A stretch of DNA of 42,831 bases from a virus, in the IMG/VR virus record IMGVR_UViG_3300025652_000146, positions 1 to 42,831 of that record, one strand, 5' to 3'. The position numbers and the translations under genes are program-made. Shown piece after piece: positions 10,340 to 23,859 of this stretch (within the stretch, counting starts at the first letter, position 1; each line of letters opens with the position of its first letter). The notes under the pieces were generated by a model. That model was not told the origin of the DNA and ran no database searches. It saw only the letters and a list, made by a program, of their open reading frames with translations.

Positions 10340-10365
10340 TTTTATTATAAATTGCAATATATTCG
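10340..10365 (+). promoter_or_regulatory. Promoter with single operator, before the replication gene
   Basis: TTTTATTATAAAT (10340-10352) is the operator palindrome with one mismatch. TATATTCG at 10358-10365 resembles the TAnnTTTG -7 box. Operator centre to box spacing is 12 bp, as at 6170/6182 (13 at 4348/4361). Transcription would run directly into the structured RNA at 10378. Confidence 0.5.
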
Positions 10366-10377
10366 AAACGGTTCAAA

Positions 10378-10467
10378 GTAGAAGCTGAATCATTTTGATG
10401 CAAGAATTTAAAAAACAAAATTTTTGTTTACCCGTGAATTGCTTCTACCAGTTCACGGTTTTTTTTT
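10378..10467 (+). ncRNA. Structured RNA element with interleaved stems, copy 1
   Basis: Stem 1: GTAGAAGC (10378-10385) with GCTTCTAC (10441-10448). Stem 2: CCGTGAAT (10432-10439) with GTTCACGG (10451-10458), which encloses the 3' arm of stem 1, so the stems interleave as in a pseudoknot or as alternatives. A small hairpin AAACAA/TTGTTT (10413-10429) and GATGCAAGAA (10397-10406) lie in the long loop. Nine T residues follow, so stem 2 is also an intrinsic terminator. Copy 2 at 14428 preserves all pairings with changed bases. The next ATG is 24 bases downstream. I do not recognise it as a known riboswitch or ribozyme class. Confidence 0.7.
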
Positions 10468-10490
10468 GCCTTTTTTTTAAAAAAAAATCC

Positions 10491-11378
10491 ATGATAAAAA
10501 ATAGTACTAAAGTAAATCGAATTAATAACGTTAGGTCAAAATTACCTTTCACAACAATCAGAAATGAAGCTATCAAAAACAAAAATCTATCTTGGAAAGC
10601 AAAAGGTATTCTTGTATTTTTAATTTCATTGCCTGAAGACTGGAAAATTTATATTAGCGAACTTCAAACACATGCAAAAGATGGAAGGGACGCAACAAAC
10701 AAAGGAATTGACGAATTGATAAAAGCAGGTTATGTTGTTAGAAATAGAATTCATAATTCAGAAAATGGAAGGTTTGAAGGTTATGAATACGATGTTTCAG
10801 ACGAAGTTCAAACCATTTGCAGAAAACCCGTAAACGGGAAACCCGTAAACGGGAAAACCGTAAACGGAAAACCCGTAACTATAAAAGAAAGAAGTAACAA
10901 AAGAAAGATTAAACAAAAGAAAGAAGTGAAGCAGCAAATCACAAAATCTGACAATCTTGAAGATCTTTTCATTGAAGCGACTATTCAGGAAAAAACAATT
11001 AAATCTTCTTTTGATGTTAAAGACGAAATTTTGAATCAAAATATTTTAACAGATTCACCTGAAGCAAGAATCAAAGTTTGGAAGATATATGAAAAATGGA
11101 TTGAACATGAATCTTTTGCTTCGCTTTGGAGTTTTTACGGTGATATGTACAAAGAAGTTGATCCAGTTGAATTAATGAAAATTTGGGTTACTAAAGCGGA
11201 TTGGTACACAGTCACACAAGTCAAAGTCAATTTGGTTCAAGGTTGGATCAAAAGGGCAAATCAAGAAATTCAAAAATTAAAATCTTCGACAAATGGAAAA
11301 ACAAGAAATAACAAAAACCTTATCAGCGAATCAGATGCAAAAGCAGTCTTTAATGATCTTATGCAAAACGGTATCTGA
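10491..11378 (+). CDS. Replication initiator-like protein with winged helix
   Basis: 295 aa. Residues 15-100 form a helix-turn-helix domain typical of phage and plasmid replication proteins (LSWKAKGILVFLISLPEDW, then GRDATNKGIDELIKAGYV and a beta wing). Residues 111-130 are a repeated KPVNG segment encoded by iteron-like DNA. The C-terminal half has Trp-rich helices. Such proteins bind an origin and recruit the host helicase. A frame extension to 10395 crosses the structured RNA and is rejected; the chosen ATG has an A-rich leader. It sits in the slot of lambda O-type initiators, downstream of the recombination genes. Confidence 0.7.
   Translation: MIKNSTKVNRINNVRSKLPFTTIRNEAIKNKNLSWKAKGILVFLISLPEDWKIYISELQTHAKDGRDATNKGIDELIKAGYVVRNRIHNSENGRFEGYEYDVSDEVQTICRKPVNGKPVNGKTVNGKPVTIKERSNKRKIKQKKEVKQQITKSDNLEDLFIEATIQEKTIKSSFDVKDEILNQNILTDSPEARIKVWKIYEKWIEHESFASLWSFYGDMYKEVDPVELMKIWVTKADWYTVTQVKVNLVQGWIKRANQEIQKLKSSTNGKTRNNKNLISESDAKAVFNDLMQNGI
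10824..10879 (+). repeat. Iteron-like 15-bp tandem repeats inside the initiator gene
   Basis: Units at 10824-10838 and 10839-10853 are identical (AAACCCGTAAACGGG). 10854-10868 differs at two positions and 10869-10879 is a partial fourth unit. Each contains the inverted repeat CCCGT/ACGGG. Tandem repeats within an initiator gene are the classic lambda-type origin layout, so this is the best origin candidate. They also encode the KPVNG repeats. Confidence 0.55.
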
Positions 11379-12141
11379 TAAAACAGGTTGTTCAAAATTT
11401 CAAGCTTCAGTTGTTGCACAAGGTCATGAAACACAACTTCGAAAAATGGATCAAGTCACAGCAATTGGAAGGTTGACTTTAGAAATTCCACAAGTTGCAA
11501 AAATATACGGGGCAAGATTTGACGTTTCGCAAAATGTACTTTCTGAATCAATCAGATTAATTTTAAAAAAATTTGGAAGACTTGGATTGATTGAAATTCG
11601 TGAAGCATACCGTCAACATGCTTCAGGGGAATTAAAAATTTCAGGTGGTGAAATGTGGGGTGGTGAATTTAATGTTGCGCAGCTTGGAAAAGTCTTGACT
11701 GCTTATTGTCAAAATAGATCAAAAATTTTAGCTGAAATTTTAAAACAAAAAGCTGAAGAAAAAGAAGCTAAAATTCAAGCTGAAATTCACAAGTCAAAGC
11801 AAGAACAGTTTGAAATTGATTTTCCTGTTGAAGTCATGGAGAAAAGAAAGACTTTCAAAAAGTGGTCAGATGTTCCTTCTTTTTGGTTTGAATTAATTTT
11901 CAATCGACATTGGATTAATTTTGAAGAAGGTGAAGCTGAAGCAATTCTTGAAGAAGCAAAAGCAATTGCAAAAATTGAACTTCGAAAAAAGGAATCAGAA
12001 AGAAGTCAAGCTTCACTTCAGGAACGTTTCAAAATGACTGTTCCAACAGAAGGTGAACTTGCAAAAAGAATTGCAAGACAGTTGACCGTTTTCAAAAAAG
12101 TAGTTCAGGAAGAAGATTTTCAACCAGTATCAAAAAAGTAA
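11353..12141 (+). CDS. Unknown protein following the replication initiator
   Basis: 262 aa from ATG 11353; an upstream ATG at 11293 would add 20 residues but overlap the initiator gene by 86 bases. The first 110 residues are helical (an RLILKKFGRLGLIEIREAYR segment is distinctive), then a Lys/Glu/Ala-rich helix (about 125-160) and a Trp-containing segment (KTFKKWSDVPSFWFELIFNR). No Walker A motif, so it is not an AAA+ helicase loader. Position directly after the initiator suggests a replication accessory role. Confidence 0.65.
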   Translation: MILCKTVSDKTGCSKFQASVVAQGHETQLRKMDQVTAIGRLTLEIPQVAKIYGARFDVSQNVLSESIRLILKKFGRLGLIEIREAYRQHASGELKISGGEMWGGEFNVAQLGKVLTAYCQNRSKILAEILKQKAEEKEAKIQAEIHKSKQEQFEIDFPVEVMEKRKTFKKWSDVPSFWFELIFNRHWINFEEGEAEAILEEAKAIAKIELRKKESERSQASLQERFKMTVPTEGELAKRIARQLTVFKKVVQEEDFQPVSKK

Positions 12142-12176
12142 TTTTATTTTTTAACTTTTATAAACCATATATAAAA

Positions 12177-12550
12177 ATGGCAACTTCAAAACCTAAAGCA
12201 GCAGGAAACAAAGCACCTGCAAGCAAATCAAGAATCAAAAAAACTGATTATCAGTTTTTTTGATTCTTGGAACATTACCAATGACCTTTTCACGTGGTGT
12301 ACAAATCAATGATAAAACTTCAAACCTTTCTGTTGAATTGAAGCTGAATCATAAAAAAGATTTAGTCACCATTGTTGCAAAAATTGACAATGATCAAATG
12401 ACAGGGGACGCAAAACTTGATTCTGCAATGTTGGAAACTTTAAATGAATTAACACTTGAAGCAATCAGTCAGGGCGTGAAATGGAGGAACGAAAGAAAGA
12501 AAGCCAAAGAAGAAAATTCTGATCCTGATCAGTTGAAAATTGGTTTCTAA
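12177..12550 (+). CDS. Unknown gene split by a -1 frameshift at a T7 run
   Basis: The ATG at 12177, behind a TTTTTTAAC leader, opens 28 codons with a Lys/Ala/Pro-rich start, ending CAG TTT TTT TGA (stop 12261-12263). The -1 frame, entered at the seven-T run 12255-12261, continues for 96 codons to TAA at 12550 with native codon use. Together they give about 123 aa. Either a T was lost from an original eight-T run, or ribosomes slip at TTT TTT before the TGA. Alternatively the downstream part starts alone at ATG 12281. Function unknown; the tail is charged. Confidence 0.6.
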
Positions 12551-12575
12551 GAAATAAGGGTGTTAGTTTTTCGGT

Positions 12576-12646
12576 TGCTGTCACTACAAAGTAAAATTTG
12601 TAATTCCTTTTTAATTCGGGGGAACGAAGAAAAAGAAAAGACAGCA
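12576..12646 (+). ncRNA. Possible three-way-junction RNA
   Basis: Outer stem TGCTGTC/GACAGCA (12576-12582 with 12640-12646) encloses hairpin TACAAA/TTTGTA (12585-12602) and hairpin CTTTTT..TTCG/CGAA..AAAAAG (12607-12635). ATTTTTAAAA follows, so the unit could terminate transcription. It fills most of the gap 12551-12675 between two damaged genes. Single copy, so the fold has no covariation support. Confidence 0.4.
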
Positions 12647-12675
12647 TTTTTAAAACTCATAAAATAAAAATCGAC

Positions 12676-12816
12676 ATGAAAAAATCAAAAACAAATTCAA
12701 AACTTGCTGATCCTTCAGCACTAAAAAAGAAAGTCAAAGAAATTATTGACAATAGGAAATTTAAAAAAAGAAAGTATTCAATTGGTTGTTCTGATGATCA
12801 TTTTTTTTATGGGTAA
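12676..12816 (+). CDS. Short basic protein, probably truncated by cassette insertion
   Basis: 46 codons from an ATCGACATG start. Lys-rich, ending in SIGCSDDHFFYG; the TAA stop is the first three bases of the attC-like hairpin at 12814. The native codon pattern stops exactly where the foreign cassette region begins. The original gene was probably longer and lost its 3' end, or the site was always at its stop codon as at 18216. Confidence 0.5.
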   Translation: MKKSKTNSKLADPSALKKKVKEIIDNRKFKKRKYSIGCSDDHFFYG

Positions 12817-12880
12817 CGGTCAATGTGTAAACGCAGTAGGAGCGCATAGCGACTATTGCCGTTTACACCGTGTTGTGTGC
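12814..12880. repeat. attC-like hairpin A (left edge of cassette island)
   Basis: TAACG start, then GTGTAAACG (12825-12833) pairing with CGTTTACAC (12860-12868). The stem extends through GCAGTAG/CTATTGC with one extrahelical base beside the CG. It ends GTTGTGTGC. The terminal TAAC resembles the left core of integron attC sites. Same general design as sites B, C and D. Confidence 0.6.
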
Positions 12881-12910
12881 TTTTAATTACTCGAAAATTT
12901 TAAATTAATT

Positions 12911-13114
12911 ATGAATTGGAAAACAAATAGTAAGATTGAAATACTAGAAGCACCGCCAAGACTAAAACACTTAGTTGGTGAATATGGAACATTAGAGGAT
13001 TATGAATACTTTATAAGAAGTAGCACAGGGAAAAGATATCATATGGATTCTGAAAAATGGCATGTGAAATTTCATTCAGTCACAGGGCAATTAGGTAAAA
13101 AAGTTAACATTTAA
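12911..13114 (+). CDS. Cassette gene, unknown small protein
   Basis: 67 aa, soluble, no recognised motif; contains several aromatic residues and a basic C-terminus. Codon junctions often read T|A and codons such as AGG and ATA are used, unlike native phage genes, so it was probably acquired. It is 10 bases upstream of the next cassette gene and both lie between attC-like sites A and B. Confidence 0.6.
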   Translation: MNWKTNSKIEILEAPPRLKHLVGEYGTLEDYEYFIRSSTGKRYHMDSEKWHVKFHSVTGQLGKKVNI

Positions 13115-13124
13115 AATCATTTTC

Positions 13125-13691
13125 ATGTATAAAGAATTTACTATTCCAGAACAAAAATATAAATCATGTGTATTGTGTCCACATTATTCTAATAGGCTTT
13201 TGAAGTCAGGAAGAAATCCGATTCGAGAGCATTATTGTAATCATCCTAATTTCGATAATTACGAAGATTTTATGCGTTCGATTTTAGGTAAAAGAGATGG
13301 ACGTAAAATTGGGGAAGATTCTAATACTCCAAAATGGTGTCCATTTTTACCCCAAGCAAATGGTAAAAGAAATTTCTCTCAAATTACACCTTCTGAATGT
13401 TTAGCAGTTTCCAAAATTGCAAAACCAACTTGTTTTGTAAATCCCGAAATCAAATGGAAGATTGTAAAAGCAGATAAGGACGTTTATACTTTTGGCGGAT
13501 ACTCTGTTAAATCAAAAGACAATTGGTTTCAATTTGACTTTGATTTTGAAATGGAAAACATATCTATTTGGGATACAAAATATCCTGAATCTGATGGGGA
13601 GAAAATAGACATGCAAAGTCATTTTGAAATTGTTCAATTCTTAAATTCTAAGAAGATTTTTTTTGAATGGCAATCTGTAAAATCTATTTAA
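13125..13691 (+). CDS. Cassette gene with Cys/His cluster, unknown
   Basis: 188 aa. Residues 15-40 hold CVLCPHYSN...YCNHP, a possible zinc site (two Cys as CxxC, then His, Cys and His). The middle contains another Cys (KWCPF). The C-terminal 70 residues look beta-rich. Foreign codon use as in its neighbours. No family recognised. Single-gene or two-gene cassettes of unknown function are typical between attC-type sites. Confidence 0.6.
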   Translation: MYKEFTIPEQKYKSCVLCPHYSNRLLKSGRNPIREHYCNHPNFDNYEDFMRSILGKRDGRKIGEDSNTPKWCPFLPQANGKRNFSQITPSECLAVSKIAKPTCFVNPEIKWKIVKADKDVYTFGGYSVKSKDNWFQFDFDFEMENISIWDTKYPESDGEKIDMQSHFEIVQFLNSKKIFFEWQSVKSI

Positions 13692-13731
13692 TCTTTAAAT
13701 TGCAAAGAAGCGGGGATTTTCTTTTTCAATT

Positions 13732-13804
13732 GCACATAACGTCCCCTGCATACACGCAGGGAAGCCGCATAGGCTTACTTGCCGTTGTATGCGTTGTTAT
13801 GTGC
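13732..13804. repeat. attC-like hairpin B
   Basis: Perfect outer arms GCACATAAC (13732-13740) and GTTATGTGC (13796-13804). The inner arm GCATACACGCAGGGAAGCC pairs with GGCTTACTTGCCGTTGTATGC; two bases on the 3' side, flanking a CG, are extrahelical. Both perfect outer arms and extrahelical bases are hallmarks of integron attC folding, though the core is not the textbook GTTRRRY. Confidence 0.65.
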
Positions 13805-13837
13805 TTTAAATTTATTATTAATCTTTAAATCAATTTT

Positions 13838-14266
13838 ATGAAACATATATTTTATTTAATAGCTGTATTTTTTATTATCTATGAATTAATGTGGTTAATG
13901 CAACCTCAAAAATTTGTACTTGATAGAATTAATTTTGATAAGCTCCAAAAAGAAAACAAAGGAAAAAAATGGGATGATATGTCAGAAGAATATCACTCAG
14001 CGCTTATTGGAAAAATCCCTATGCTGTTTTTATCTATTTGGATGATTTCTGGCTTATTTACATTTAATTGGGTTGCCTTTTTAATAATCCTTGTTTTTAA
14101 TTTTTTAATTATTACACCAATTGGTAAGGCTTTGAAATTTTCCAAAGGTTATACTATTTTACATTGGAGTAATTCGCTTATTGGTTTGATTTGGGGAGTT
14201 TTTATAATTATTAATTCCTATCATCTTAAAATTGATTTATTAAATTATTTGGCGAATGCCTTTTAA
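13838..14266 (+). CDS. Cassette gene, four-helix membrane protein
   Basis: 142 aa with about four hydrophobic segments (3-20, 57-76, 78-95, 110-130) and a charged loop (29-52, containing KGKKWDDMSEEYHS). Foreign codon use. It alone occupies the cassette between hairpins B and C. No family recognised. Confidence 0.6.
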   Translation: MKHIFYLIAVFFIIYELMWLMQPQKFVLDRINFDKLQKENKGKKWDDMSEEYHSALIGKIPMLFLSIWMISGLFTFNWVAFLIILVFNFLIITPIGKALKFSKGYTILHWSNSLIGLIWGVFIIINSYHLKIDLLNYLANAF

Positions 14267-14309
14267 ATTGAGCGATTGAAAAGCGGGTTTGGGTTTTCTC
14301 TTTTCAATT

Positions 14310-14372
14310 GCACATAACGCAAAGCTAAACGCAGTTCGACGTTAGGAGAATTGACGTTTTAGCGATTGTTAT
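14310..14372. repeat. attC-like hairpin C (right edge of cassette island)
   Basis: Starts GCACATAAC like site B and ends GTTAT. Inner arms GCTAAACGCAGTTC and GAATTGACGTTTTAGC pair with two extrahelical bases flanking CG, at the same positions as in B and D. Beyond it, 14373-14427 is AT-rich with no gene. Confidence 0.6.
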
Positions 14373-14427
14373 TTTTTACTATTAATATTTTTTTGTAAAT
14401 TGTGTTATCATTCAAATATCATTTCAA

Positions 14428-14518
14428 GTAGTAGCGGAATTTTATTTGATGCAAGAAAATTAGAAAACAATTTTTTTGTTTATGCTGAATCTAGCTACTA
14501 CCTAGATTCGGCTTTTTT
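14428..14518 (+). ncRNA. Structured RNA element with interleaved stems, copy 2
   Basis: Stem 1: GTAGTAGC (14428-14435) with GCTACTAC (14494-14501). Stem 2: GCTGAATC (14484-14491) with GATTCGGC (14505-14512), then six T. Shared with copy 1 are GATGCAAGAA (14448-14457), an AAACAA/TTGTTT hairpin and loop lengths within 2 bases (L1 46 vs 48). Stem sequences differ but stay paired: one A-T to T-A exchange in stem 1 and several changes in stem 2. The HNH start codon is 12 bases downstream. Either a cis-acting attenuator or a small terminated RNA. Confidence 0.7.
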
Positions 14519-14529
14519 AATTTTAAGAC

Positions 14530-15033
14530 ATGAAAGAAATACCAGGTTATCCCAATTATTATGCTTGTGAAAAAGGTTTTATTTTTACTTCTAATTATAA
14601 GAACACAGGAAAGTTCAAAAAGATGAAATTGGAAAAAATGATAACTGGTTATTTGAGAATTAATCTATGGAGGAATAAAAAACTAAAAAGATTTACAGTT
14701 CACGAAATTATCATGTTGACCTTTGAAGGTGAAAGACCAAAGGGATTTATAATTCACCATAAAGATGACAATAGGAAAAATAATAAATTTGATAATCTTG
14801 AATACACTACGCAATCTAAAAACATTCAATATGCTTTTGATAGGGGGCGAAAAGCAAAAGGTGAAAACCACCACCAAACAACTTTAAAAAGAGTTGAAGT
14901 GTTATTTATAAAAAAATTCTACAAAAATAATCCAAATGTTAAGTTTCCAATCTTAGCTAAAAAATACAAGGTATGTAGAACAACAATATCAAATATTGTG
15001 AATGGTAAAACGTGGGGACATGTTGAGATATGA
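14530..15033 (+). CDS. HNH homing endonuclease (NUMOD4-HNH-HTH)
   Basis: 167 aa. Residues 4-25 resemble the NUMOD4 module (IPGYPNYYACEKGFIFTSN). Residues 74-92 form the HNH core (IIHHKDDNRKNNKFDNLEY). Residues 112-163 give a helix-turn-helix ending in SNIVNGKTW, the usual target-recognition module. This is the architecture of free-standing phage homing endonucleases. Codon use differs from native genes, consistent with a mobile gene, and it arrived next to a second copy of the RNA element. Confidence 0.85.
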   Translation: MKEIPGYPNYYACEKGFIFTSNYKNTGKFKKMKLEKMITGYLRINLWRNKKLKRFTVHEIIMLTFEGERPKGFIIHHKDDNRKNNKFDNLEYTTQSKNIQYAFDRGRKAKGENHHQTTLKRVEVLFIKKFYKNNPNVKFPILAKKYKVCRTTISNIVNGKTWGHVEI

Positions 15034-15478
15034 TTTTTTTAAGAAGTCAAAAAAGAAACCACTTACTAGAGAGGTTTATATAATGGAACTTGATCCTTCT
15101 TTAATTAGATTAATTTCAGGTTTTTTCTTAAAGGTCAGAATAATCAAAATTGGAATTTCTAAGAATTCAAACCAACGAAAAAAAGAAGTTGATTCAGGAA
15201 TAAAAGGAAAGATTATATTAATTGATTGTTATCTAGTTGAAGCAGCAACAAGAACTGAATCACACATTCATAAATTATATAAATCAGATAGTTTCAAACC
15301 TAAAGTTCATAAAAAAGGAAGCGGAGAAACTGAATTCTTTAAATTATCGAATAGTCAAATTCAAGAAATAAAATCAATTCTTTCAAGAAGGTCAGCAAAC
15401 AATTCAGATTTCAAAAAGGTCTTCTTCCTGATCCTTTTTTTGATCATTCTTTTTTATTACTTTCTAAAATTCAAATAA
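15020..15478 (+). CDS. GIY-YIG/T5orf172-like nuclease domain with C-terminal membrane helix
   Basis: 152 aa from ATG 15020 (ATG 15002 is an alternative). Residues 18-50 read VYIMELD...IIKIGIS, then NQRKKEVDSG, matching the two strands and Arg of GIY-YIG-like T5orf172/MUG113 domains; SHIHKLY and GETEFFKLS complete the pattern. The domain normally cleaves DNA. Residues 131-150 are a hydrophobic helix, which is odd for a nuclease and would tether it to the membrane. It overlaps the HNH gene and ends on the A of the next ATG. Confidence 0.6.
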   Translation: MLRYDFFKKSKKKPLTREVYIMELDPSLIRLISGFFLKVRIIKIGISKNSNQRKKEVDSGIKGKIILIDCYLVEAATRTESHIHKLYKSDSFKPKVHKKGSGETEFFKLSNSQIQEIKSILSRRSANNSDFKKVFFLILFLIILFYYFLKFK

Positions 15479-18128: not shown

Positions 18129-18218
18129 ATGAAAAAAATATCATTCTTTAAAGGTGTTTTAATAGCAGGTTGCACTTGCATTTTTATTTGGTGGTTGATC
18201 CTTTCCGCTTTAAAATAA
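18129..18218 (+). CDS. 29-aa membrane peptide ending in an attC-like site
   Basis: ATG 22 bases after the previous stop; basic start (MKKISFFKG), then 19 hydrophobic residues. Its TAA is the beginning of hairpin D, just as the truncated gene at 12676 ends in hairpin A. Confidence 0.5.
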   Translation: MKKISFFKGVLIAGCTCIFIWWLILSALK

Positions 18219-18274
18219 CGCATAGTTAAACGCATTTTTGAGGAATCGAAAATTGACGTTTTAACGGTTGTTAT
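18215..18274. repeat. attC-like hairpin D
   Basis: ATAAC (18215-18219) and GTTAT (18270-18274) are the outer arms. GTTAAACG (18225-18232) pairs with CGTTTTAAC (18257-18265) with an extrahelical base. It shares AACGCA...TTGACGTTTTA...GTTATTTTTT with hairpin C. It lies 3.8 kb from the cassette island, so it is either an older scar or a free integration site. Confidence 0.55.
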
Positions 18275-18324
18275 TTTTTTGTACCTTGTAAATACTATTA
18301 CTATCAAGCTTTAATTCTGTTCTT

Positions 18325-18358
18325 AGTCAGTCACCTGAAAAATGACTGACTTTTTTTT
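18325..18358 (+). terminator. Intrinsic terminator
   Basis: AGTCAGTCA (18325-18333) pairs perfectly with TGACTGACT (18343-18351), followed by eight T. It ends the 15478-18218 unit. The rest of 18275-18385 has no gene. Confidence 0.85.
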
Positions 18359-18385
18359 GTCAACAATTAACAATAAATTTGATGT

Positions 18386-18574
18386 ATGAAAACATGGAAG
18401 AATTACAAAACACTTGCTGAAGCAATGCCAAATTTGAAAAGAAGAAAGTGTTGGAATAATTGTTTTGAGTGCAAAAAAGAATGGTCAGAAACAAAAACAG
18501 TTCATGTTCACATGATTCAACCAAATGGAGTTGCAAAATTTATTTGTGATCTTTGTCTTGAAAAATATCTTTAA
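18386..18574 (+). CDS. Small zinc-ribbon protein
   Basis: 62 aa with Cys residues arranged as CWNNCFEC (about 22-29) and CDLC (about 54-57), a zinc-ribbon-like pattern. Basic N-terminus. It follows a terminator and precedes the protease gene by 22 bases. Small zinc ribbons in phages often bind nucleic acid or host polymerase, but no specific relative is recognised. Confidence 0.6.
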   Translation: MKTWKNYKTLAEAMPNLKRRKCWNNCFECKKEWSETKTVHVHMIQPNGVAKFICDLCLEKYL

Positions 18575-23026: not shown

Positions 23027-23080
23027 ATTTTGTATATTTGAAATGTATAGTTTTTTTCATAAAGATTTTTTGTTTAATAA

Positions 23081-23119
23081 CCTTCAGCAATCCATGATTT
23101 TGCTGAAGGTTTTTTTTTT
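23081..23119 (+). terminator. Intrinsic terminator after the terminase genes
   Basis: CCTTCAGCA (23081-23089) pairs with TGCTGAAGG (23101-23109), followed by ten T. It separates terminase from the head operon. Confidence 0.85.
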
Positions 23120-23132
23120 GAAAAAAATGTCA

Positions 23133-23217: not shown

Positions 23218-23859
23218 ATGTTTTTACATTTTGCCCTTCTTTGTGGTTGCCCACCTGATGCAGCAGTTACTGACATTCCTGTTGATGCTTGTCTTGAACG
23301 TTGGGGTCAGCTTCAAAAATTCATAATCCAACGTAGAAAAAATGGAACTGTTGAAAATACAATTGTAGATGCAACAGACGATCCTACACTTCTTGCAACA
23401 TGGACATCTTTAAAAGCTGCTGTTGATTCAACCAAAGTTCAAGTTTCCCCTTACATGGTTTCAGTTGCTGTTGAAGCAGGTGAAGCAAGGGAATCAGGGG
23501 GTGGGAATGATTCAATTGGAGGTATTGCAGATGTTATTGGAAGAAACCCTTCAACATTTACAGCATCGTTCAAAGACATCAAACAAACAATTGTTGCTGC
23601 TTTGAAAACTTATGAATGCGAAAAAGAACTTGCAATTATTTTCATCAATGAACACGGTCAATTGATAGGTCGAACTTCAGATCCTGCAACGAACCTTGAC
23701 TTCAAAGGTTTTCCAATTCGTTCTTTCTTCTGTTCTGATAAGTCACCAGGTGGATTTGATAACAATGATATAAACAATTTGAAATGGTCATTCCTTCCAA
23801 ACTGGTCAGACAATACACGAATTGTCACACCTGTCTTTGATGCTTTGACAGCAATCTAA
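23218..23859 (+). CDS. Probable virion structural protein
   Basis: 213 aa. No enzymatic motif. An unusual Cys-containing start (LLCGCPPDA) leads into CLERWGQLQKFIIQRR, then a Gly-rich turn (about 93-100), beta-rich core and an ending typical of phage structural proteins. It is first in the head operon, between terminase and portal. I recall proteins with this type of N-terminus in Bacteroidota phages but cannot confirm here. Confidence 0.6.
   Translation: MFLHFALLCGCPPDAAVTDIPVDACLERWGQLQKFIIQRRKNGTVENTIVDATDDPTLLATWTSLKAAVDSTKVQVSPYMVSVAVEAGEARESGGGNDSIGGIADVIGRNPSTFTASFKDIKQTIVAALKTYECEKELAIIFINEHGQLIGRTSDPATNLDFKGFPIRSFFCSDKSPGGFDNNDINNLKWSFLPNWSDNTRIVTPVFDALTAI

Follow-up and report, generated by a model that had tools for sequence, protein, structure and literature searches.

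A duplicated three-hairpin candidate leader RNA with a predicted kissing loop on its own intrinsic terminator in a phage genome

The virus record IMGVR_UViG_3300025652_000146 of IMG/VR, whose 42,831 bases were analysed as a whole and are called the window here, carries two copies of an RNA element of ~105-110 nucleotides (nt), which consists of three consecutive hairpins, P1, P2, and P3, the last of which is an intrinsic terminator. Copy 1 lies just before a gene for a replication initiator-like protein, and copy 2 lies before a gene for an HNH endonuclease. Terminase relatives of the window phage are largely Bacteroidota phages (of Flavobacterium, Cellulophaga, Polaribacter, and Bacteroides), and no close relative was found, the best terminase identity being 45%. 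To our knowledge, few cis-regulatory RNAs of Bacteroidota phages have been described.

The two copies and the genes behind them

The copies had been proposed at 10378-10467 and 14428-14518 by an earlier reading made without database searches (the sequence-only reading), and both were confirmed there as homologous and structurally constrained. The homologous stretches are 10360-10467 and 14408-14518, and the alignment of copy 1 with copy 2, which begins ~50 bp upstream of the element as first reported, reaches a score of 56.5 over ~145 bp, against at most 27.5 for shuffles and at most 32 for any other stretch of the window. The motif GATGCAAGAA is shared at 10397 and 14448 and has no other exact match in the window. 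The features of the two loci are as follows.

10348-10355, + strand: predicted -7 box of copy 1, TAAATTGC, matching TAnnTTGY; predicted transcription start ~10360
10363-10398, + strand: P1 hairpin of copy 1, outer part TCGAAA/TTTTGA, inner part GGTTCA (10370-10375)/TGAATC (10386-10391)
10376-10385, + strand: apical loop of P1 of copy 1, AAGTAGAAGC, whose GTAGAAG (10378-10384) is predicted to kiss the terminator loop
10400-10427, + strand: P2 hairpin of copy 1, GCAAGAATTT/AAATTTTTGT, with an A-rich loop, from folding
10432-10467, + strand: P3 of copy 1, intrinsic terminator CCGTGAATTG/CAGTTCACGG, with the 7-nt loop CTTCTAC (10442-10448) and a T-run at 10459-10467
10491-11378, + strand: downstream gene of copy 1, replication initiator-like protein with an N-terminal helix-turn-helix (HTH)
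14396-14403, + strand: predicted -7 box of copy 2, TAAATTGT, matching TAnnTTGY; predicted transcription start ~14408
14412-14449, + strand: P1 hairpin of copy 2, TCAAATA/TATTTGA plus ATTTC (14421-14425)/GGAAT (14436-14440)
14426-14435, + strand: apical loop of P1 of copy 2, AAGTAGTAGC, whose GTAGTAG (14428-14434) is predicted to kiss the terminator loop
14451-14479, + strand: P2 hairpin of copy 2, GCAAGAAAATT/AATTTTTTTGT, from folding
14484-14518, + strand: P3 of copy 2, intrinsic terminator GCTGAATCTAG/CTAGATTCGGC, with the 7-nt loop CTACTAC (14495-14501) and a T-run at 14513-14518
14530-15033, + strand: downstream gene of copy 2, HNH endonuclease of the free-standing homing type (HNH_3, PF13392, 43.2 bits against a cut-off of 24.8)

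As had been noted earlier, 24 nt separate copy 1 from the start codon at 10491, and 12 nt separate copy 2 from that at 14530. The protein behind copy 1 shares 46% identity over residues 20-127 with replication initiation proteins of Staphylococcus phages (tblastn, E 1e-21), and its HTH_36 match is below the cut-off. The HNH gene had suggested a HEARO/IscB-type RNA, which was rejected, the protein being a 167-aa HNH_3 homing-type enzyme. A leader peptide was considered as well: an ATG at 10398, in the conserved GATGCAAG, runs in frame through the terminator of copy 1 into the rep gene, while in copy 2 the corresponding frame is closed by a stop after 4 codons, which leaves no conserved leader peptide.

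The motif SM5 (TAnnTTGY, at -12 to -5) has been described in Flavobacterium psychrophilum, where an alternative sigma factor is proposed to recognise it (PMC9723704). Both window copies are preceded by an exact TAAATTG[C/T] box, and the + strand of the window has only 19 octamers that fit TAnnTTGY. If the host uses the F. psychrophilum motif, transcription is predicted to start 3-4 nt before P1 and to yield RNAs of ~105-110 nt. The terminator stands between a predicted promoter-like box and the gene in all copies. In the copies inspected, neither TAnnTTTG nor TAnnTTGY occurs in the stretch that separates the terminator from the gene, which suggests that polymerase would have to pass P3 to make the gene. 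By contrast, a plain terminator elsewhere in the window, at 18334, has a box behind it: at 18280-18386, an attC-like site is followed by TTGTAAATAC, the terminator, and a perfect TAAATTTG box at 18374; the start codon at 18386 is only 12 nt further on, so the mRNA is possibly leaderless or nearly so. Another promoter-then-terminator leader, which lacks a kissing loop, is seen at 23040-23120, where a TATATTTG box is followed ~40 nt on by a 12-bp terminator (23091), ahead of a gene at 23218.

Fold, predicted loop-loop pairing, and covariation

The sequence-only reading had described two interleaved stems with a small hairpin, namely stem 1 (GTAGAAGC/GCTTCTAC in copy 1; GTAGTAGC/GCTACTAC in copy 2) and stem 2, a terminator stem, and all pairs proposed for the two stems and the small hairpin are indeed retained between the copies, with 6 double changes. 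Stem 2 with its T-run is a real terminator stem whose length had been understated: in copies 1 and 2, the P3 stem measures 10 and 11 bp, respectively, around a 7-nt loop, with -12.1 and -13.9 kcal/mol and 9 and 6 U, respectively, as expected of an intrinsic terminator. The small AAACAA/TTGTTT hairpin (-1.3/-2.0 kcal/mol) gave way to the overlapping 10-11-bp hairpin GCAAGAA.../...UUUUUGU, which is P2 and, at -5.7/-5.9 kcal/mol, the better choice.

P1 surfaced in folds of fragments starting slightly further upstream. Its 10-nt apical loop, AAGUAG[A/U]AGC, holds the entire 5' side of stem 1, while the 7-nt terminator loop, CU[U/A]CUAC, is exactly its 3' side, and because the two arms lie in two hairpin loops, both pairings are compatible. 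Of the two options first put forward, a pseudoknotted RNA or an attenuator with competing stems, the pseudoknotted RNA with its own terminator, in leader position and outside any Rfam class, was borne out; stem 1 and the terminator need not exclude each other, since kissing of the P1 and P3 loops would let both form. The concern that a linker of 2-3 bases would keep both stems from forming also falls away with this loop-loop geometry, and two related elements from other viral contigs (L304 and L317, described below) fold likewise without constraint.

The predicted contact is a 7-bp kissing helix within 8 complementary nt. Taking at least 6 complementary loop nt together with a compensatory change as the mark of a kissing loop, we found 7 bp in all four sequences (copies 1 and 2, L304, and L317), and an A-U pair of copy 1 has become U-A in copy 2. 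When the loops were paired across the copies, one pair was lost and the energy fell from -10.3/-10.5 to -5.8 kcal/mol, which indicates that each loop pair fits its own RNA. Unconstrained minimum-energy folds of all four sequences, with the longer fragment taken for the two window copies, contain P1 at its loop, P2, and the terminator; shorter fragments also yield other small pairings near the P1 loop, so that P1 of the window copies rests equally on covariation and energy. Between the copies, the 12 pairs of P1, one of which has no partner base in copy 1, show two double and three one-sided changes, and the inner part of P1 in copy 1 is backed by L304 and L317.

A column-consistent alignment of the two copies gave 41 pairs, with 98.8% of cells paired and 10 double-sided changes, in which all four helices share. 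Only 1 of 500 column shuffles was as high, and with the partner strand slid, no more than 2 double changes remained. For P2 and P3, aligning the copies requires a choice of gap placement, and their double changes therefore carry less weight than the ones in P1 and the kissing pair. For the P1-kiss-P3 core of the four sequences, 27 pairs with 11 double-sided changes were counted, which none of 500 shuffles equalled on any measure, and G-U pairs occur among the retained pairs. The architecture of the element, three hairpins with loop-loop pairing, is thus well supported.

No other terminator-like hairpin of the window has an 8-nt upstream complement of its loop region, and when 89 terminators of the window phage and its relatives were tested, the loop complement was at most 6 nt in all except these copies. 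The real copies reached a kissing-loop-plus-terminator score of 13.0, against a best of 11.0 when the whole window was dinucleotide-shuffled 30 times, and the two copies rank top for the kissing-loop-terminator descriptor over 3.3 Mb of fetched sequence. Generic loop-complementary terminators showed no excess over swapped controls in 18 related phages.

Homologues and neighbouring features

A scan of IMG/VR with a pattern of the two loops only, AAGTAGNAGC...GCTNCTACC, returned 54 stretches in viral contigs, of which L304, L317, and L318 stand out under a covariance model of P1-P2-P3 (model R2), with 36.1-42.7 bits and E-values down to 2e-6 in 0.5 Mb. Their stems P1 (GUUAGUUG/CAACUAAU) and P3 (AGCCCC..UUAG/CUAA..GGGGCU) are largely unlike the window sequences and are still paired, and the unconstrained folds of L304 and L317 contain all three hairpins, P1 having a loop of 10 nt and the terminator the 7-nt loop CUUCUAC. 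In L304 and L317, the U-run finishes 13-14 nt before the gene for a 788-aa protein with BT4734-like_N and DUF5906 domains, which is related to phage primase-helicases, and in L304, TATTTTTG near the corresponding place fits an ordinary TAnnTTTG box by prediction. Stems, U-run, and gene position all lie outside the search pattern. The sequence-only reading had named a lack of covarying homologues, or a terminator-only repeat with stem 1 not conserved, as grounds for giving up the element; covarying homologues were found, and in them the stem-1 pairing is kept.

Other searches added no member. Patterns around GATGCAAGAA had no match in viral contigs, a looser GATGCAAGAA pattern hit, among the matches listed, mostly marine phage coding sequence, and the 13 matches of GATGCAAGAA patterns in genome contigs were all due to chance. 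A covariance model of the hairpins as first described (R1) was run on 50 terminase-related phage records and 395 Bacteroidota genomes without a convincing match, the top ones lacking the fold. With R2, a match in one of the 395 genomes (L264, 0.0016) proved to be a plain terminator after a tRNA-synthetase-like gene. A model of five sequences (R3) yielded 13 weak matches in 295 genomes; those listed and examined resemble ordinary terminators behind genes, and several of the loci finish in ...EVVAE-stop. No further copy was seen upstream of relatives of the primase-helicase in named phages and Bacteroidota genomes, and BLASTN of the elements against phage records gave chance matches only. The Rfam 15 covariance models found no family at gathering score in the whole window; on the copies there were only sub-threshold chance matches, such as sroB (25.0 vs 44) and HrrF (23.4 vs 77), and ctRNA_pT181 matched both copies at chance level only (E 2.5 and 5.7).

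Several other features were noted along the way. In L304, a 300-bp non-coding stretch before the element (L304:7413-7716) carries repeated ggtataaaa/tataaa motifs and is possibly an origin or a promoter array. A human gut phage (MT835542.1:13893-14018, L333/L336), which was a chance match of the RNA model, contains nested inverted repeats of AAAGTTTGTTAGTA[A/G]CAAAC units, resembling an operator array. In the window, iteron-like tandem repeats (acccgtaaacgggaaa) lie within the replication initiator gene at 10828-10880 and are likely an origin. Four attC-like palindromes of the ATAACG...CGTTGTTAT type, with imperfect inner arms, occur at 12815-12887, 13733-13808, 14311-14378, and 18215-18275; three of them flank small open reading frames (12911-13691 and 13838-14266), like an integron cassette array without an integrase, and copy 2 directly follows the third. 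Clusters of attC sites carried by phages are known (PMC9892861). Downstream of this array, at 14530-15478, the HNH_3 endonuclease is followed by a GIY-YIG-type protein (T5orf172/MUG113), giving two adjacent homing-type nucleases.

A candidate attenuator and its alternatives

The element is best read, with a probability that we put at roughly 55%, as a kissing-loop-gated transcription attenuator, that is, a leader RNA of phage genes, mostly replication genes. It would serve as a conditional terminator for the gene 12-24 nt on, which is the replication initiator or the HNH endonuclease here and the primase-helicase in other phages, and readthrough of P3 by polymerase most likely sets the output of that gene. 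P1, which is folded first, would capture the emerging P3 loop and in this way gate the closure of P3. Before the 3' arm of P3 exists, the nested stem-1 fold is the most stable one, which makes such a capture kinetically plausible. The 8-nt complementarity reaches one base into the closing pair of P3, suggesting that capture hinders closure (antitermination), and this direction is our guess, the alternative being that kissing stabilises P3. Kissing complexes, such as that of ColE1 RNAI/RNAII, offer a precedent for an intact stem whose 7-nt loop is paired throughout. A trans factor at either loop, the state of the cell, or the released RNA itself might tilt the balance, and once released, the RNA of ~110 nt could have a further role in trans.

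Some observations weigh against regulation through the kissing loop. The window copies have a short P1, with 5-6 bp in its inner part, and its outer part is not retained in L304 and L317. The independent sequences are few, amounting to two paralogues of one phage and effectively one further lineage, as the core sequences of L317 and L318 are identical and L304 is close to them. The homologues were picked by the two loop sequences, so the conservation of the loops is partly by construction. No homologue was found in ~90 phage records related by terminase or primase, nor any further member in the 395 and 295 Bacteroidota genomes sampled, and the family is therefore rare, fast-changing, or confined to unsampled phages. 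The role as an attenuator could also be incidental to a terminator that serves the upstream gene.

That last point, taken further, would make the element a plain terminator for the operon upstream: its 5' hairpin would stabilise the 3' end and its loop pairing would protect the transcript from decay, without any regulation. P3 is normal and strong and the upstream genes are co-directional, which speaks for this reading; we nevertheless regard it as unlikely, for a promoter-like box separates the upstream gene from the element in both copies, the loop pair shows compensatory change, the element recurs before replication genes in unrelated phages, and none of the other terminators tested has a loop complement longer than 6 nt. 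A stronger contender, which we still hold only tentatively, is a trans-acting small RNA of ~110 nt, in which the fold and the kissing serve a stable free RNA and the place before a gene is incidental in a dense co-directional genome. A promoter-like box and a strong terminator make up a complete small transcription unit, the loops are near-constant while the stems vary, as for a trans-bound site, and one genome has two slightly different copies. However, the constancy of the loops is partly a matter of ascertainment, and in every copy only 12-24 nt lie between its end and a start codon, which leaves no room for another promoter, so that the terminator would have to affect the downstream gene.

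The classical form of attenuation, with stem 1 extended into the 5' arm of the terminator as an antiterminator that excludes the terminator, agrees with the early stability of the nested stem-1 fold, but appears improbable. A forced stem 1 was no stabler than with shuffled linkers (63% of shuffles for copy 1 and 94% for copy 2 were at least as stable), the terminator dominates both copies, with a pair probability above 0.9 in the unconstrained ensemble, and the 5' arm lies within the P1 loop in all four sequences. Action at the level of DNA, as a single-strand initiation site or origin hairpins working as folded single-stranded DNA, is less probable again: hairpins and kissing are possible in single-stranded DNA too, and copy 1 and the copies of L304, L317, and L318 adjoin replication initiator or primase-helicase genes, yet a strand-specific U-run stands right after P3 in every copy, G-U occurs among the retained pairs, one copy precedes the HNH gene, and the origin-like iterons lie instead inside the rep gene. 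Most far-fetched of all is a tRNA-sensing attenuator unrelated to T-boxes, in which tRNA-Arg(UCU) and the terminator loop would compete for P1. The P1 loop GUAGAAG, present in three of the four sequences, complements 6 nt of the Bacteroidota tRNA-Arg(UCU) anticodon loop CUUCUAA, which is one base apart from the terminator loop CUUCUAC, and if this were true, loss or cleavage of the tRNA, as by the anticodon nucleases of phage defence, would alter expression of phage replication genes. But copy 2 needs the anticodon ACU, which was absent from the tRNAs looked at in two Bacteroidota genomes, and a chance C-U-nnn-A match in a 7-nt loop is expected at ~2% by base composition.

Leader RNAs that use kissing loops are already known, and what appears new here is a candidate leader RNA with a predicted kissing loop on an intrinsic terminator. 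The T-box leader has a loop complementary to the anticodon loop, upstream of a terminator, and a UGGN antiterminator bulge. The element resembles it in a loop complementary to an anticodon-like 7-nt loop ahead of a terminator, but neither RNA contains UGG on inspection, no T-box Rfam match was obtained, and the tRNA complementarity fits copy 1 and not copy 2. The preQ1 and SAM-II riboswitches are H-type pseudoknot attenuators in short leaders and of a similar size class; there a loop pairs with a single strand, whereas the element pairs two hairpin loops and has no Rfam match. In ColE1 RNAI/RNAII-Rom, pT181 attenuation, and the CI RNA of phage P4, loop pairing or leader termination limits replication functions. 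The element likewise places loop pairing or termination ahead of replication genes; unlike in those systems, where the partner is an antisense or separate RNA, both of its loops belong to the same RNA, and an antisense unit was not seen. The nearest working parallel appears to be the cobalamin riboswitch, in which the loop L5 kisses the loop L13 of the expression platform, as in metE of M. tuberculosis, and double mutants restore control (PMC11260477). In both cases, a loop near the 5' end of the leader kisses, here by prediction, the loop of a hairpin before a gene, which is regulatory there and a candidate regulator here. The cobalamin riboswitch exceeds 200 nt, in contrast to ~110 nt for the element, which has no aptamer, B12 box, four-way junction, or Rfam cobalamin match, and whose partner hairpin is an intrinsic terminator ahead of phage genes.

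If the reading as a kissing-loop-gated attenuator is right, the element would give these phages a compact means of metering replication proteins during infection, acting on the replication initiator in one phage and the primase-helicase in another. The kissing helices of the two copies differ by one compensated pair and may therefore be orthogonal regulatory parts, and the element offers a simple, testable model for the effect of loop-loop contact on intrinsic termination.

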